Assembly: GCA_003225005.1 (NCBI GenBank)
Contig: QIAN01000097.1
Coordinates: 1 to 64,000 of the forward strand
Direction: 5' to 3'
DNA length: 64,000 bases
DNA from: Acidobacteriota bacterium
Lineage (GTDB): Bacteria > Acidobacteriota > Terriglobia > Terriglobales > Acidobacteriaceae
Shown: one piece after another, positions 1,379 to 47,603 of the stretch
Position numbering within the stretch: the first letter of the stretch is position 1
Layout: each line of letters starts with the position of its first letter
Translations under genes and position numbers: made by a program
Notes under the pieces: generated by a model
Told to the model about the DNA's origin: nothing
The model's input: the letters and a program-made list of their open reading frames with translations, nothing else
The model's database searches: none

Positions 1379-2290
1379 TCACTGGGCGGGCGTTTCAGGA
1401 GCGGCTGTCTCCTTCGGTGCCTCCTGGGGCGCACTCGCTACCACCTCGGGCGCTCCCGCGGGAGTGATCTTCACTGTGGCCAGGATCTTTTCCAGCCTGC
1501 TGAAGACTTTGCCGTGATCTACGTGTTTGGTAGCAGTCTCGGTGCCGCCTCCGATCGTGCCAACCTTTAACGCGAACTCGTAGCAGGCGCCATTTTTAAA
1601 GACGTGGAAGTATTTGGCGTCGCTCTCCTTGCTGCCTTCAGCAGCGACAGCCTCCGTAGATTGCAGCTCTAGCTCGCCCAGCATGAGCTTCGAGGAAGCC
1701 GCGTTCGCTCGAGTTCCAGAGTCCGCCGGCGTCTTGGGATCAGGCTGAGGCACGGAGAACTTACCGCAGTCCTCCGCACTGAGGTTTTTGTTTACGCTCA
1801 CGTTGAACACTCCCCATTCGAAATCTGTGCCGGGAAAAGAGGTTGCGGGAAGAGAGACGGCGGCCAACGCTGTTCCGCCCGGTTGCGTGAAATCCATGGG
1901 GACAAGGCCGGATGAGATCTGTTCGTTGGCGGCATCACCGGTTTCGAGCGCGTACTTGCGCGGATACTCAAACGACACGCCATAGGTTTTGTCGGAGTAC
2001 GTCACCGTGGAAGGCCGCTTCCTGGCGACTTTCTTCGGAGCTTTCTTCGCAGGTTCGGGCACGCTCGACGCCGGCAGCAGATCGGTACTGACAGCGGGAT
2101 TCGCGCTCTGAGTAGTCGGAATCTGATTGCTGGACGCTGGTTGAGGTCTGTCTTTGGAGCAGCCAACTGTGATCGAACAGACAACGAGCAGCGCGGCGAA
2201 CAGCAGCGTGCTTGCGTTTTTCTCCCACGCGATGGAGTTGTGGGTTCCTACGATTCTGCTTACAGAATGGAAACGGTTGATATGTGCCAT
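1379..2290 (-). CDS. Putative secreted lipoprotein of unknown function
   Basis: The 303-residue protein has a hydrophobic segment at about residues 28-44 (LLFAALLVVCSITVGC) ending in a plausible lipobox cysteine, followed by a Ser/Pro/Thr-rich linker with a short Lys-rich stretch (KKAPKKVARKR). The body (about 95-285) begins with a YGVSFEYPRKYAL-type segment, as seen in secreted proteins of the PsbP/DUF1795-like type. I recognise the style but not a named family. The C-terminus is Ala/Pro/Glu-rich. It likely sits on the outer face of a membrane. The start is uncertain because the hydrophobic segment lies about 28 residues in, and a shorter start is possible. A clean intrinsic terminator follows at 1328-1357. 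Confidence 0.6.
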   Translation of the reverse strand: MAHINRFHSVSRIVGTHNSIAWEKNASTLLFAALLVVCSITVGCSKDRPQPASSNQIPTTQSANPAVSTDLLPASSVPEPAKKAPKKVARKRPSTVTYSDKTYGVSFEYPRKYALETGDAANEQISSGLVPMDFTQPGGTALAAVSLPATSFPGTDFEWGVFNVSVNKNLSAEDCGKFSVPQPDPKTPADSGTRANAASSKLMLGELELQSTEAVAAEGSKESDAKYFHVFKNGACYEFALKVGTIGGGTETATKHVDHGKVFSRLEKILATVKITPAGAPEVVASAPQEAPKETAAPETPAQ

Positions 2291-2599
2291 GTTCGGTCAC
2301 CTCCTGCTGCGTAGCAGCACTGATGAGAGTGCACGAGGTGCGCCACGGGCCCGATCGCTGATTTTGTTGAGGTTATCGCCATGTCGCAAGAAACATGTCG
2401 TGAGCAGCCGACACGCTGTGGGTTGAGGGACGCAGTTCGGGAGCCACCGAATGCCTGAAGCGCTCAAGCAGATTGAGGAGCGTTGAGCATAGTTTTTTGT
2501 GGAGATTGTGGCCGTCGGACATACGCGCGGGCGGTATAGTGGGCCGTGTTTGGAAGGTAAAAAGGAGGTTCCGATTTATGACCAACGCGCCTGCTTGTA

Positions 2600-2959
2600 G
2601 TGGTGGCATTTGCCGTGGGTGCAAGTTGCCTGTATGCGGCGGAGAAAAATGTTATTTTGGAGGGCACGCTCGTCTCCAGCGCCTGCTATCTTGAGAGCGA
2701 CAACCGTCCAACTGGAAATGACATGGGAGGAAGAAGGGCTTGCGGTACCGAGTGCTTGAAACGCGGCGATCCAGCCGGATTGGTGACCAAAGAGAAAGAG
2801 TTTCACATCCTGGTCGCCCCTTCTCTGGCCCTCGCACTGTACGTGGGACTGCAGGTTCGCGTGACCGGTACAGACCACAATGGCACCATTGGTGTGGAGA
2901 AGGCAGAAGTCGCGAAAGACGGTAATTGGGAGGAAATAGACCTCAAGTCCAAGATGTGA
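2600..2959 (+). CDS. Small secreted cysteine-containing protein, likely frameshifted at its start
   Basis: From the GTG at 2600 the frame gives 119 residues: a hydrophobic leader ending AAEKN, then VILEGTLVSSACYLESDN and RRACGTECLKRGDPAGLVT. The rest resembles small secreted acidobacterial proteins with an OB-like beta core (VRVTGTDHNG). The best ribosome-binding site (AAAGGAGG at about 2560-2567) and ATG (2578) lie just upstream but in another frame. Removing one C from ATGACCAACG would join that ATG to the frame and give a normal signal peptide (M-T-T-R-L-L-V-V-V-A-F-A). The gene therefore has either a one-base insertion (mutation or sequence error) or uses the weaker GTG start with a shortened leader. 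Function is unknown. Confidence 0.55.
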   Translation: MVAFAVGASCLYAAEKNVILEGTLVSSACYLESDNRPTGNDMGGRRACGTECLKRGDPAGLVTKEKEFHILVAPSLALALYVGLQVRVTGTDHNGTIGVEKAEVAKDGNWEEIDLKSKM

Positions 2960-3295
2960 CGGCGTCTAAGTCGCCAGCGCATGCGTCGACTGGTCCGCCT
3001 ACCACCTGATCATTCCTTCCGAGGCTGTCCCGTCGAAGCTCTGCTTAGGCGGCGATTTCTGTCGTAATCTTTCAAACAAATCGATCGCGGCTTCATCTGG
3101 TCTCCCCCGAAAATCGATAAGGGAATATCGTCGACCCGTTTTTCTCGGCAAACGTTTCTACCAGGTAACCATGTAGAGCGAGTTGCAGTTTTCGACGCGA
3201 CGGCACAGTTGTCTGCAGGGCCACGATCGCGCCTTGGTTCACTTATAAAAGGGCGCAACATACGGGTTATGTTCTTGAGAACATAAGATGAACAC

Positions 3296-3539
3296 TTAGT
3301 TGGCGAGCTTCCTGTCGAACATCCTGCCTTTCGTACCTTTCTTCTTGGAATAGGCAAGACCCCAGTCGTAGGTCTTGCGTCCCCACAGGATGGTGTCGAT
3401 CGAAGGGGTAGAACGCGCGCATGCCGTAATCGACTGTGCGCGGTCGGCGATTTAGCCATTCGACATCGCCGTCTGGCCTGGCGATGTAACCGTCGGCGCT
3501 GATTGCGATGTAGACGATGATCTTTCGCCGTGCTTTCAT
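3296..3539 (-). pseudogene. Decayed DHFR/RibD C-terminal-domain-type reductase
   Basis: From the ATG at 3537-3539 the frame reads MKARRKIIVYIAISADGYIA-RPDGDVEWLNRR, the start of the dihydrofolate reductase/RibD-C superfamily used by many small DHFR-like proteins. Near 3400 the reading shifts by one base and continues as SIDTILWGRKTYDWGLAY, the expected next motif, up to a TAA at 3296-3298. The C-terminal half of the fold is missing or unrecognisable in the following 300 bases. About 80 of the usual 170-180 residues remain, so I call it a degraded pseudogene. Confidence 0.6.
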
Positions 3540-9772: not shown

Positions 9773-12700
9773 CTACGACTTCAGGACCTTGATGCGCTCG
9801 GCGACGTCGCGATAATCAATGTTGCTGCCGTAGACCTGAGTGAAGTGCTTGAGAGCAGAAGGTTTGTCGCCCGAAGTCTCGTAGGCGGCTCCCAACTCGT
9901 AGTGCAGGGCGACGCGCGTATCTCCGTCGATGCTGGGAACGCTGAGAGCCTTGTCGTACCAGCGGATAGCGGCTTCTGGAACTCCCTTATCGAGGAAGCA
10001 CTGGGCCAGCCAGGTGTAGGTCTGCATGATCTGCGAAAAGGCGTGACCGCGCTCCACCGACTGGCAAGCCTTCTGCAATTCGCCGATGGCCTCATCGAGA
10101 AGTCCCATTTCACGGAACGCGATCCCCAGATTGTAGTGTGTCTCCGGATCTTCGTCCGCGGAAGCAAGATCGGCTTCCAGATCCTGTTTGAGTTCGCCGA
10201 ACATCTCAGCCAGATCCACGCCCGCATCCTCGGCGAATGGAGAGGATTTGGCTGCGCCCACCGGCATCGAATGGGCGGTAGAAGGTTTTGGCGGTGGCAC
10301 GGTTGCAGCTCTGGCCGGTGCTGTCCCTGCTGCTGCTGCCGCAGCCATAGGAGCGCTGGCAGGCGGGGCGACTGCTGGCGGCGCGGCTGGTGGCGGCGCT
10401 TGGGGTGCAACGGCGGAAACAGGTTCAGGTTCAGCGACCGGAGCGCCCTTCAAGAAATCATCGCCCAGCGAAGCTTCCAGGTCGGCGACGAGCTCACCCA
10501 AGGCCGGCGCCTCAGCGGAAGGGTGCTCAACCGGAGCGGCCGGCTCGAGGTGAGGTTCGATTGTTTTAGCGCGTTGCTGCCTCTGATGCTGGTCAGCTAA
10601 GGTCGCGTCGGCATCGTGCTCGACCGCGCCCGGGAGAAAGCTGTCGCCCAGGGAAGACTCGAGATCGGAGACAAATTCCTTCAGAACGCCCGGCTGTTTG
10701 ACTCTGACTTCGGGTTCAACTTCCGCTGCCGACGCGGCTACTTCGGGTGCGGGTTCCAAAGCCGACGGAGTTACTTCGCTGGCGGGCGCGTCCTCGAGAG
10801 AAACGGTGATCTCTTCTGCGCGCAGGTCCGCGCTGGGGATGTCCTCGGCTGCAATTTCCTCGATGGAATCGGGAACACCTAATTCTTCTTCGTCGGCAGG
10901 GGCCTGACTAGCGGCCTCGATTTCGGCGCGCAGGGTAGCCAGCAAAGCCCGGTCATGAGTCAGAGTCTGCAGCTTGGCGAATGCTGCCGATGCCTGATCA
11001 GACATGCCGTGGCCAAGATAGAAACGTACCTCCTCGACGGTCTCTTCCGACTTCTCGTCGTGAGTGTCGGGGCTGGCATCGGCGGCGGGGAGATCGTGGT
11101 CGCCCACAGCGTCGCTGATTTCAACCGCAGCGATCTCTGCGGCCGGCGGGTCTTCTTCAACCGTAACCGAGTCTTCCCATTCTGAAAGCAAATCGAGTTC
11201 GTCCACTGCCGGAGCAGATTCATTCGAGGGCTCTGCGGGCTCCGCAACGATGGCAAATTCAGTTTCAGCGCTGCTGCGTGCATGGGCAGCTTCATGAACC
11301 GGTGCCGGTGCAAATGCCGGCCACGGGACTGCGGCGGCTTGCGCCGCCGCAGTTCCCTCAGGCGTTATCTCCGTTAACAAAACGTCTTCTGCCACAGCAG
11401 CCTTCGAGGTTGAGGATCGCTGTTCATAACGTTCCGCAAGCTCGCCGTAACCGGTGGCTTCTTCGGGATATCCCGCCTCCGAGTAGATATTTTGCAGGGT
11501 ATGACAGCAGACCGCAGCTTCAGCGAATCGGCCGGCGCGAGTATGCAGAGCGGCGAGACGCTGGTTCAAACGCAAATCGTTGGGAGCCTGCGGCAGCACT
11601 GCTACGAGAGGTCCCAAAGCTTTAGCAGGAATGTTGTACGAGATAAAGAGTTCGGCGTCGGTGAGCGCGGAGCGGACAGCCAGCGCGACTTCATCGGAAT
11701 AGTGCTGGTGAACGGGAGGAGTGGTGGCCTCCAACTCGTCCACGATAACGGCAGCTTCTTCCGGAGTGATGAGGTTTACACCCGCGGCAGTCCCTCCGAG
11801 CTGTGCTACCACCTGCTGGTAGTTCGCCATGTGCAAGGGGTTCTGAGGCTCCACGGTTGCCAGCTTCTGATACAGATCACGGGCGCGTGGCAGGTTGCCG
11901 GACTGGACAGAAGCGTGCGCCAACAATTCGTATACCTCGGTGACGTGAGTGTTGTCTCCGGCCTTAAGGAAAAGAGCCAGCAATTTCTCCAGAGAAGCAG
12001 GGTTTTCGCGGACATGACCGATGATGGAGTGCAGGCTCTCCAGCGCCTTCGCTGAGTTTGTGGAGAGCAGCCGCTCGGAGTGTTGATCGTAGACCAGCAG
12101 CGCGTTCTCATATTGGCCGGCCTGCATCAGAGCGTCGGCGAAACCTGAGATCGCGGCCAGGTCGTTGTGAACAGTCAAAAGCTTATGGGCCAGCGTGCCG
12201 GCATCGGAGAGGTGTCCCACGTGCAGGTAAGCCTTGAGCAGGTCACGCAGGCCCTCTGGTTTGGAGTCAATATCGCCGACTTTTTGCAGACAAGTGATAG
12301 CCGCTTCGGCATCGCCTGATTCGAGCAGATTCCGACCGTGCATCAGCAGCGCATAACTGTTGGCGGGATCGAGGGTCAGCATGCGCTGCAGCACCTCCTC
12401 GGCGCCGGCCAGCGACCCCTTTGACCGCATGGTTTCAGCGACTGCGGAAAAAATCTGCCAAGCCTCGGTCTTCTTGCCCGAGCGGACATACACTTCCGCC
12501 AACCGGACGCGCATGGCCGTGTTCTCCGGATCCATTTCTAGGATCTTCTGAAAAATGCGGACTGCGTTTTCCAGCTCGCCGGCTTTCAGGAATTCGTCGG
12601 CCACCTGCAGATACTGAGCGCGGGCATCATTGAAGAGACCCTGTTGAGTGTAAAGCTCTGCCAGCTTCAGCACGCACTCAAGCGAAGGCTTGAGCTTGCT

Positions 12701-12967
12701 GATCTTCTTGTACATGGCGATAGCCTTGACCGTGAATCCCTGGGTGGCATAGGCATCGCCCACACTCTTAAAACAGGCCGTGGCCTTGTCGTTATCGCCC
12801 ATGCGGGCGTAGAGGTCTCCAACGGTGTTACTCACCGTGAGATCCTTGGTATCATTCTTGAGGATCTTGTCGTACTCAGCGATGGCATTTTGCAGCTTGC
12901 CCTGCTGGACATACTTCTCCGCAGCGCTGAGGACCTTTTGTTTGTTGAACCCGAAACCGAACGCCAT
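9773..12967 (-). CDS. Large tetratricopeptide-repeat protein
   Basis: From the ATG at 12967 (MAFGFGFNKQKVLSAAEKYV) the protein has 1064 residues. Residues about 15-470 are successive TPR units (AIAEYDKILKNDTKD, NDKATACFKSVGDAYATQG, ARAQYLQVADEFLKAG and further), with more near 560-620. The middle (about 640-960) is an acidic, Ala/Pro-rich low-complexity stretch in which a short module recurs (ELVADLEASLGDDFLKGA and FVSDLESSLGDSFLPGA). The C-terminus (about 985-1064) returns to TPR (YNLGIAFREMGLLDEAIGELQKAC). No signal peptide is seen. Such proteins scaffold protein complexes, but the partner is unknown. The upstream 250 codons of open frame lack coding character and are not included. Confidence 0.8.
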   Translation of the reverse strand: MAFGFGFNKQKVLSAAEKYVQQGKLQNAIAEYDKILKNDTKDLTVSNTVGDLYARMGDNDKATACFKSVGDAYATQGFTVKAIAMYKKISKLKPSLECVLKLAELYTQQGLFNDARAQYLQVADEFLKAGELENAVRIFQKILEMDPENTAMRVRLAEVYVRSGKKTEAWQIFSAVAETMRSKGSLAGAEEVLQRMLTLDPANSYALLMHGRNLLESGDAEAAITCLQKVGDIDSKPEGLRDLLKAYLHVGHLSDAGTLAHKLLTVHNDLAAISGFADALMQAGQYENALLVYDQHSERLLSTNSAKALESLHSIIGHVRENPASLEKLLALFLKAGDNTHVTEVYELLAHASVQSGNLPRARDLYQKLATVEPQNPLHMANYQQVVAQLGGTAAGVNLITPEEAAVIVDELEATTPPVHQHYSDEVALAVRSALTDAELFISYNIPAKALGPLVAVLPQAPNDLRLNQRLAALHTRAGRFAEAAVCCHTLQNIYSEAGYPEEATGYGELAERYEQRSSTSKAAVAEDVLLTEITPEGTAAAQAAAVPWPAFAPAPVHEAAHARSSAETEFAIVAEPAEPSNESAPAVDELDLLSEWEDSVTVEEDPPAAEIAAVEISDAVGDHDLPAADASPDTHDEKSEETVEEVRFYLGHGMSDQASAAFAKLQTLTHDRALLATLRAEIEAASQAPADEEELGVPDSIEEIAAEDIPSADLRAEEITVSLEDAPASEVTPSALEPAPEVAASAAEVEPEVRVKQPGVLKEFVSDLESSLGDSFLPGAVEHDADATLADQHQRQQRAKTIEPHLEPAAPVEHPSAEAPALGELVADLEASLGDDFLKGAPVAEPEPVSAVAPQAPPPAAPPAVAPPASAPMAAAAAAGTAPARAATVPPPKPSTAHSMPVGAAKSSPFAEDAGVDLAEMFGELKQDLEADLASADEDPETHYNLGIAFREMGLLDEAIGELQKACQSVERGHAFSQIMQTYTWLAQCFLDKGVPEAAIRWYDKALSVPSIDGDTRVALHYELGAAYETSGDKPSALKHFTQVYGSNIDYRDVAERIKVLKS

Positions 12968-13480
12968 ATAGGTACGAACTCCAGCCCCTGGTCTTATCGC
13001 GGAAGCTACGAACCATTCCGGGGAAGCATCCCCGGGAAAACGTCTACGGCAATCCCGGATGCGGTCGAGATGGCCGATCGGACAAGGCCAATTGTACGGC
13101 TGGACATGGCAAATCGCATGGTTACTAAGGGTTACCAAAAGGGAGTGTACAAGTGGGTTACGAAGGGAACATGTGGCACGTAAGCATGCGACTCCGCCAA
13201 GATGGCCTGGTAAGGACAAGGTGGAGACTAGCTAATCAGCAATGCACCCCATGAATTACGGAGTCTCAGGAGAAAAACACGGATCCGATGGCTGTTTCCA
13301 GAGAGATTCTGGACGATTCACAGGCAATCCGCGGCCATTCCATGCGCTAGGAGTTGCGTGAATGCTGCAAATTGCTGAGTCGAGAAAGATCCCAACTTCG
13401 GTTGGGCTTGGCTTCCCGGGAGAGTGTACCTTGGAAACCAAGAAATTCTAGACCTAAGACGCAAGGAACAATTTCTCAAT
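12968..13480. other. Divergent intergenic region between the TPR and AhpD-like genes
   Basis: About 510 bases lie between two divergent genes and should contain both promoters. An AAGGA site at about 13462-13467 precedes the AhpD-like start. I see no convincing gene in either strand. Confidence 0.4.
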
Positions 13481-14047
13481 ATGACATGGATCAGAACCAT
13501 TCCGGCTTCAGAAGCTGATGAGAAACTCCGCCAGGCCATTGCTGACCAGAGGCTCGTGTATCCCAAGGAATATGCGGATCCGGTGCATCCGGACGAAAGT
13601 GGCGGGTCGTCAATCGTGGGATCGCACACGCTAATTCCCGACGCGCTCTATCACGCCTTCAGTACGTTTGGAGTGCTCCTGTCGCCCGACCTTCCGCTCA
13701 ATCGGCGGCAGCACGAGATGATCACCACGGTGGTCTCGGTGACGAACCGGTGCAAGTATTGAATCGAGTCACACGCAGAGTTTCTGCGTAGGGTGACACT
13801 GGACAAAGAGCTGGTCGCGGCGCTTGACAAGGACTACACGACCGCGCCGATCACATCGCAGGAGCGGGTGATGCTTGACTACGTAGTCATGGTGACCCGG
13901 GACGCAACGAAGGTGCGGAAGGATGACATAGAAGCATTGCGCACGGCCGGATTCGATGACCGCGGCATTCTGCAGATTACTCTGATTGCTTCCTGGTTCA
14001 ACTACATCAATCGGGTGGCGGATGCGCTGGGCGTGGGGAGAGAGTAA
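13481..14047 (+). CDS. AhpD-like / carboxymuconolactone decarboxylase family protein, candidate selenoprotein (in-frame TGA at 13760-13762)
   Basis: Reading through one TGA gives a single 188-residue protein in one frame. [17 protein letters not shown] opens it as in the peroxidase-related CMD family, followed by [29 protein letters not shown]. The redox motif is then N-R-C-K-Y-(TGA)-I-E-S-H: Cys91, TGA codon 94, Glu96, His98. The frame continues [19 protein letters not shown] and ends [19 protein letters not shown]. In AhpD-like proteins the motif is CxxC...H and the second cysteine is catalytic, so TGA falls exactly where selenocysteine could replace it. A strong stem-loop follows at 13768-13797. 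Sec-containing AhpD-like proteins are known as a class. The likely role is a thiol/selenol-dependent peroxidase or reductase. The alternative is a nonsense mutation, but both halves are otherwise intact. Confidence 0.75.
13768..13797 (+). promoter_or_regulatory. Candidate bacterial SECIS stem-loop
   Basis: Immediately after the in-frame TGA (13760-13762), GTCAC (13768-13772) pairs with GTGAC (13793-13797). ACGCAGA (13773-13779) pairs perfectly with TCTGCGT (13783-13789). The triloop is GTT (13780-13782) and there is a 3-nt bulge, AGG. Seventeen nucleotides separate the TGA from the loop and the loop begins with G, in keeping with what I recall of the bacterial SECIS model (apical loop a short distance downstream, a G in the first two loop positions). 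The stem is inside the coding sequence, as expected in bacteria. Confidence 0.7.

Positions 14048-46415: not shown

Positions 46416-47603
<1,188 letters not shown>

Follow-up and report, generated by a model that had tools for sequence, protein, structure and literature searches.

The window, by which is meant the whole 64,000-nt stretch of DNA that was analysed, carries on its plus strand an AhpD-like gene with a single in-frame TGA that is proposed to encode selenocysteine (Sec). The features of this locus, with the evidence on which each is based, are as follows.

13481..14047, + strand: candidate AhpD-like selenoprotein gene, 188 aa, TIGR01926 peroxidase-related subfamily (reading frame, TIGR01926 and Pfam scores, alignment)
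13715..13774, + strand: predicted active-site segment with E79, C91, Y93, U94 and H98, in AhpD proton-relay spacing (alignment A1, spacing in PA0269)
13760..13762, + strand: in-frame TGA, proposed Sec, residue 94, at the second position of C-x-x-U (TGA in the best 80 of 263 relatives, Sec genes in the genome)
13773..13789, + strand: apical SECIS stem-loop, 7-bp stem ACGCAGA/TCTGCGT and GTT loop, 17 nt after the TGA (synonymous constraint, pairing, fold)
13768..13797, + strand: extended hairpin with a lower 5-bp stem GTCAC/GTGAC and an AGG bulge, the lower stem not being conserved (fold, pairing counts)

Translation of 13481-14047 gives 188 residues with a sole in-frame TGA at 13760-13762 and a terminal TAA, in agreement with the original prediction, which had described a frame open apart from one TGA. 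The residues that it had placed around this codon, N-R-C-K-Y-TGA-I-E-S-H, are those obtained by translation, and they belong to the motif E-x11-C-x-Y-U-x3-H, in which the TGA occupies the second Cys position. The read-through protein matches TIGR01926 (peroxidase-related enzyme) with 104.3 bits against a cut-off of 81.8, and the Pfam family CMD (PF02627) with 37.3 bits against a cut-off of 23, both scores having been computed with C substituted for U. When TIGR01926 was compared with alignment A1, 34/34 members matched at E values up to 0.001, the best being 8.5e-36. In that alignment, conserved protein extends upstream and downstream of the TGA, as had been claimed from the single sequence. 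A mechanical ORF listing yields two pieces, 13424-13762 (112 aa) and 13793-14047 (84 aa), which is the split between fragments that had been foreseen for annotation of the gene.

Both flanking genes in the window lie in the opposite orientation, and the gene has no close same-strand partner, with nothing there that points to an operon. Among 81 loci, some of them cut by contig ends, no operon partner is common to all, and a shared operon was rejected on that ground. In 41/81 loci there is a large AMP-binding/acyltransferase-like gene, which with few exceptions lies downstream and whose distance varies, and in 32/81 a TPR-like gene is found upstream in divergent orientation; both genes are named from a reading of their sequences. 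In 8/81 loci (L069, L072, L076, L082, L086, L093, L099 and L102), the start of the gene is adjoined or overlapped by a same-strand gene resembling an amino acid permease, with the permease ending 220-299 nt before the TGA and the selenoprotein starting about 279 nt before it; the permease that was scanned, from L076, matched Pfam PF13520 with 150.8 bits. A permease gene lies downstream in two more of the 81 loci, and no permease-like gene occupies the upstream place in the window. The arrangement suggests that some lineages may transcribe the gene together with a transporter. Two other observations concern the window itself. Positions 13380-13480, compared with 36 relatives, hold a weakly conserved upstream patch that includes a GTGTA element and may be a promoter or regulatory sequence. 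At 10350-10451, inside the minus-strand ORF 9773-13219, ARAGORN called a tRNA-Thr that is absent from the Rfam search and is probably a false call.

Relatives were collected by scanning genome contigs with the read-through protein, and of the 263 found, the best 80 (71-86 % identity) were kept. All of these best 80 have TGA at the residue-94 column, in the context C-x-x-TGA-x-x-x-H, and by label they comprise 72 members of acidobacterial groups, seven of Gemmatimonadetes/Gemmatimonas and one of Latescibacterota. G084, a genome of the same genus, has a sequence identical to that of L023, a metagenome-assembled genome of Acidobacteriaceae, and on this ground the window is called acidobacterial. 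Because one of the six scan peptides had Cys at the Sec column, any bias in the scan would be toward Cys forms. Since 80 further assembled contigs have this TGA as well, sequencing error at this position is untenable. Cys is found at the Sec column in L139, one close full-length relative with a stop-free frame, and in three relatives of solved structure (the three PDB alignments shown), so that the homologues looked at have either Cys or a TGA there, contrary to the refuting case of homologues that lack Cys/Sec at that column.

The hairpin just past the TGA had been described from the window alone, and its position and 17-nt spacing from TGA to loop were reproduced exactly by folding: the lower stem spans 13768-13772/13793-13797, the upper stem 13773-13779/13783-13789 and the GTT loop 13780-13782, with a minimum free energy (MFE) of -15.4 kcal/mol (z -3.14 versus shuffles). 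Codon constraint was assessed in 108 loci (the window, L023-L102 and L112-L138), 104 of them distinct and none failing, with the Cys form L139 and the distant L140 excluded by design. Codons +4 to +9 past the TGA are nearly fixed among these 104, as CAC (102), GCA (102), GAG (104), TTT (103), CTG (104) and CGT (99), and codons +3 and +10 vary freely; in the rest of the gene, pooled use of GCA, TTT and CGT is 9 %, 31 % and 7 %, respectively. This six-codon stretch, which encodes exactly the stem ACGCAGA/TCTGCGT and the GTT loop, ranks first of 98 windows of codons for synonymous constraint, at 2.34 times expectation against a median of 1.14. The upper stem has 7/7 pairs in 99/104 sequences and 6/7 in the other five, versus all seven in 18/2080 synonymous resamples. 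The upper hairpin is therefore under selection at the RNA level. The proposed 5+7-bp stem stood in part, with its upper seven pairs conserved and its lower five not: all five lower pairs form in just 26/104 sequences, and 79.0 % of lower-stem cells are paired in an alignment of 43 sequences.

Two other lines of proof for the hairpin were set aside. Mean folding energy is -12.9 kcal/mol observed versus -10.1 kcal/mol in synonymous resamples, but it is not decisive, since -7.5 kcal/mol is also reached by 78 % of the resamples. Covariation gave no pairs changed on both sides in 43 of 81 close sequences, because the stem barely varies. The bacterial SECIS (bSECIS) model, in the part of a 2026 review that sets it out, specifies a loop of 3-9 nt with a G within its first two positions, an upper stem of 4-16 bp, a location 16-37 nt past the UGA and an MFE of at most -7.5 (PMC13188914). 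The GTT loop, 7-bp upper stem, 17-nt spacing and -15.4 kcal/mol found here all lie within that model, and what had been called SECIS-like can, with the synonymous constraint, be given a firmer name. The hairpin is nearly identical across Acidobacteriota and metagenome-assembled genomes labelled Gemmatimonadetes and Latescibacterota.

The source genome (7.9 Mb in 550 contigs, 99.73 % complete) contains the genes on which Sec decoding had been predicted to depend: selB (359.1 bits, cut-off 242.25), selA (532.7 bits in two pieces of one frame, cut-off 267.9), selD (370.3 bits, cut-off 125; L103, G000:C118:7897-8817, minus strand) and, for tRNA-Sec, a gene whose anticodon is TCA (66.9 bits, gathering score 47). 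A single TGA interrupts the selD frame close to the N-terminus, with A-S-K-L after it, from which SelD itself would probably be a selenoprotein. Elsewhere in the genome, selB (1489-3387, minus strand) on contig C373 is adjoined by the gene of a Cys-type AhpD-like protein (C-R-Y-C-T-Q-H-H; L001:863-1390, plus strand). A second match to the selB model, at 46701-47567 on the minus strand of the window, scores 195.6 bits, below the cut-off, and is probably elongation factor Tu near a tRNA cluster.

A sample of 396 genomes of the phylum extends the association between the TGA and the Sec genes. In this sample, 116 genomes have a match at an E value of 1e-10 or better, and matches are listed for 110, of which 89 have a TGA match and 21 have stop-free matches only; the counts that follow are among the matches listed. 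The context C-x-x-TGA-x3-H is present in 89/89 TGA genomes (28 close, G343 and 60 distant). The selA gene is found in 83/89 TGA genomes, the Fisher p value within the 396-genome sample being 1e-12 with related genomes counted as independent, and in 8/21 stop-free-only genomes. Under stricter filters, a tRNA-Sec match occurs in 80/89 TGA genomes and is missing from 9/89, and 88/89 have selA and/or tRNA-Sec. In G266, a TGA genome that is 72 % complete, neither selA nor tRNA-Sec was found, and only a partial selB-like match below the cut-off was detected. Where the TGA homologue has at least 61 % identity (28 genomes), selA is present in 28/28. With the exception of G014 and G318, the stop-free-only genomes match at 36 % identity or less. 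G318, which has selA, holds a C-terminal remnant only (L201, G318:C17:69400-70700; residues 117-187 at 62 % identity); the 0.7 kb upstream revealed no active site, and this remnant is probably a decayed or rearranged copy.

These observations bear on several other ways in which the TGA might be understood. Were it a true stop, with the downstream part decaying as a pseudogene, a mechanical ORF call ending at the TGA and a relative reduced to a C-terminal remnant, as in G318, would be natural. Such decay, however, is at odds with a TGA shared by every one of the best 80 of 263 relatives and flanked by conserved protein on both sides, with synonymous sites nearly frozen just past it and with the association of the TGA with Sec genes across the phylum sample; conservation across genera already refutes the pseudogene, which has a negligible probability, and bears out the earlier argument that recoding is likelier than chance nonsense. 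That the UGA is read as another amino acid, for instance as Cys through a tRNA-Cys that suppresses opal codons or as Trp under an altered genetic code, would agree with the Cys at this column in the stop-free relatives looked at. Nevertheless, a canonical tRNA-Sec is present along with selA, selB and selD, the conserved hairpin is position-specific, and among 144 genomes without selA (at an E value of 1e-60) only G014 has a listed match of at least 60 % identity, with a normal Cys codon, all of which makes such a reading very improbable. Partial termination is common at Sec UGA codons, and this gives some ground for a dual product, in which termination would leave an N-terminal form of 93 residues that functions alongside the Sec form. 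U94, H98 and the C-terminal helices, though, would all be missing from the short form, conservation is strong in the C-terminal half and no sign of selection for a short form was seen, so that a functional role for it is also very unlikely. The reading as a CxxU selenoprotein is supported by the conserved TGA, the Sec gene set and the constrained hairpin, and by these the UGA at codon 94 is almost certainly read as Sec, with actual Sec insertion being deduced from the sequences. The finding is, in that respect, unusually well supported for a case made from sequence.

The AlphaFold2 model, made with 34 sequences (pLDDT 92.8, pTM 0.89), together with the PDB matches and the conserved residues, places the predicted protein in the AhpD fold with E-x11-C-x-x-C/U-x3-H. 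Alignment A1 shows no variation at E79, Y93, residue 94 and H98, and next to none at C91. The best PDB fold matches, both with a TM of about 0.82, are the peroxidase-related 2prr and Deinococcus radiodurans 6k40, which we take to be DR1765. The debrominase Bmp8 is also among the fold matches, and Mycobacterium tuberculosis AhpD is a weak fold match to the model (E 0.047). By sequence, the top PDB matches are 2pfx, 2oyo, 3c1l, 2prr and 6k40, and a C-x-Y-C-x3-H site is present in the three PDB alignments shown.

In M. tuberculosis AhpD, the attacking residue is the second Cys. In the mechanism proposed here, the UGA at codon 94 would be decoded as Sec by SelB and the genome's tRNA-Sec, under the direction of the conserved hairpin with its GUU loop 17 nt downstream, to give a small all-helical protein with an active site of E79, C91, Y93, U94 and H98. 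Most likely, U94, with the Glu/His relay to activate it, would attack as the selenolate, and the oxidized selenium would be resolved by C91 as a selenenyl-sulfide, the outcome being thiol-dependent reduction of hydrogen or organic peroxides. Pseudomonas aeruginosa PA0269 (2o4d) and M. tuberculosis AhpD (1knc) are Cys proteins, unlike the Sec protein here, and they have a Glu/Cys/Tyr-or-His/Cys/His relay of the same spacing, which in PA0269 consists of Glu36, Cys48, Tyr50, Cys51 and His55 in a protein with weak peroxidase activity (PMC3141380). D. radiodurans without the AhpD-like DR1765 is reported to be more sensitive to H2O2, and variants of the CxxC restore H2O2 resistance much less (PMC8945050). 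The D. radiodurans protein shares the fold of the predicted protein, but it has 23 % identity in the structural alignment and its reported motif is CxxC rather than CxxU. Homology, relay spacing and the DR1765 phenotype lead us to infer that the protein would reduce peroxides by way of a selenol, U94 and C91 acting as given above.

A Sec protein whose main job is not peroxide reduction, such as a disulfide reductase or adaptor for another peroxidase, or an enzyme of reductive dehalogenation, is the alternative with the most in its favour. AhpD can pass electrons to AhpC as an adaptor (PMC3141380, PMC8945050), AhpD-fold proteins include other activities, such as that of the debrominase Bmp8, and the permease-like gene directly upstream in 8/81 loci, which is unexplained by a plain peroxidase role, hints at another pathway in some lineages. 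Against it, the best sequence and fold matches are peroxidase-related, the same C-x-Y-C-x3-H stands in the three alignments shown, and the D. radiodurans AhpD-like protein is genetically linked to H2O2 resistance (PMC8945050). A main function other than peroxide reduction consequently appears rather unlikely, though worth keeping in mind, and by analogy with its Cys relatives the selenoenzyme probably reduces peroxides, a claim made with fair rather than high confidence. The explanation as a whole, led by the decoding of UGA as Sec, is considered highly probable.

The gene fits a published kind of selenoprotein, the AhpD-like TIGR01926/COG2128 CxxU protein, known since 2005. Reference 59 of the 2026 review is taken here to be the Sargasso Sea paper. 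That survey reports 27 AhpD-like CxxU sequences of COG2128 (PMC1088965), the GOS survey reports 299 'AhpD-like 1' sequences (PMC2398784), and an entry of the 2026 review reads 'AhpD-like protein, TIGR01926, CxxU' (PMC13188914). The likeness is one of model and motif, as the gene scores over the cut-off of the same NCBIfam model and has the same CxxU. Both surveys were marine, whereas the clade described here has mainly acidobacterial labels among the best 80 of 263 relatives. A 2006 genome survey gives two AhpD-like (COG2128) selenoproteins and, as a separate entry, assigns to Acidobacteria four selenoproteins from three families (PMC1794560); in the deep-Sep paper one acidobacterial genome is tested, that of Occallatibacter riparius, in which three selenoprotein genes, unnamed in the passage concerned, are known (PMC12013277). 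The literature search found no description of this clade among the part of the matching papers that it covered, the family itself being listed in PMC13188914. Two neighbouring families were considered and rejected. NF041238 (AhpD_rel_CFYUT, alkylhydroperoxidase-related (seleno)protein) is a related Sec-bearing AhpD domain, but its model is 357 positions long and the gene scores 52.3 bits against an equivalog cut-off of 175, which places it outside that family. Similarity to NF053654, the YciW-related (seleno)protein, is weak and confined to the AhpD core, with 35.1 bits against an equivalog cut-off of 310.

The single close Cys form offers a view of how the family may have changed. Among the matches listed for the 396 genomes, full-length orthologues of at least 60 % identity comprise 28 with TGA and selA, and one with Cys in a genome in which no Sec genes were found. 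The latter genome, G014 (99 % complete), encodes a full-length orthologue of 60 % identity (ORF 1309-2076 in L139), the sole close full-length stop-free relative among the matches listed, in which the Sec column holds Cys and Thr stands where the first Cys would be (T-R-Y-C). G014 has no selA match at an E value of 0.001 and no selB over the cut-off, and its only match to the tRNA-Sec model over the gathering score (47.1 bits) is a tRNA-Ser according to ARAGORN. In the tree, L139 lies inside the Sec clade, on a long branch with unresolved forks and unsettled bootstrap, and a Sec-to-Cys direction is suggested for it by these sequences. The G014 version looks like a rescue after loss of Sec, in which Cys took the place of Sec, and Thr that of the partner Cys, to give T-x-x-C. 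A more general claim, that this is a Sec-dependent AhpD subfamily in which Sec rather than Cys is ancestral, is possible but is put forward tentatively.

In the papers found, little is said about the selenoproteins of this phylum, for which the locus provides a clean, near-textbook case of UGA-Sec decoding, in an AhpD-like selenoprotein gene that ordinary annotation would cut in two at the UGA. The near-frozen hairpin in 104 relatives is a ready model for spotting this selenoprotein in metagenomes. If Sec is indeed ancestral in the subfamily, the reaction would by implication be one carried out poorly by a CxxC enzyme. The Sec forms set beside the one Cys form are a natural test of what Sec contributes to an AhpD-type active site.
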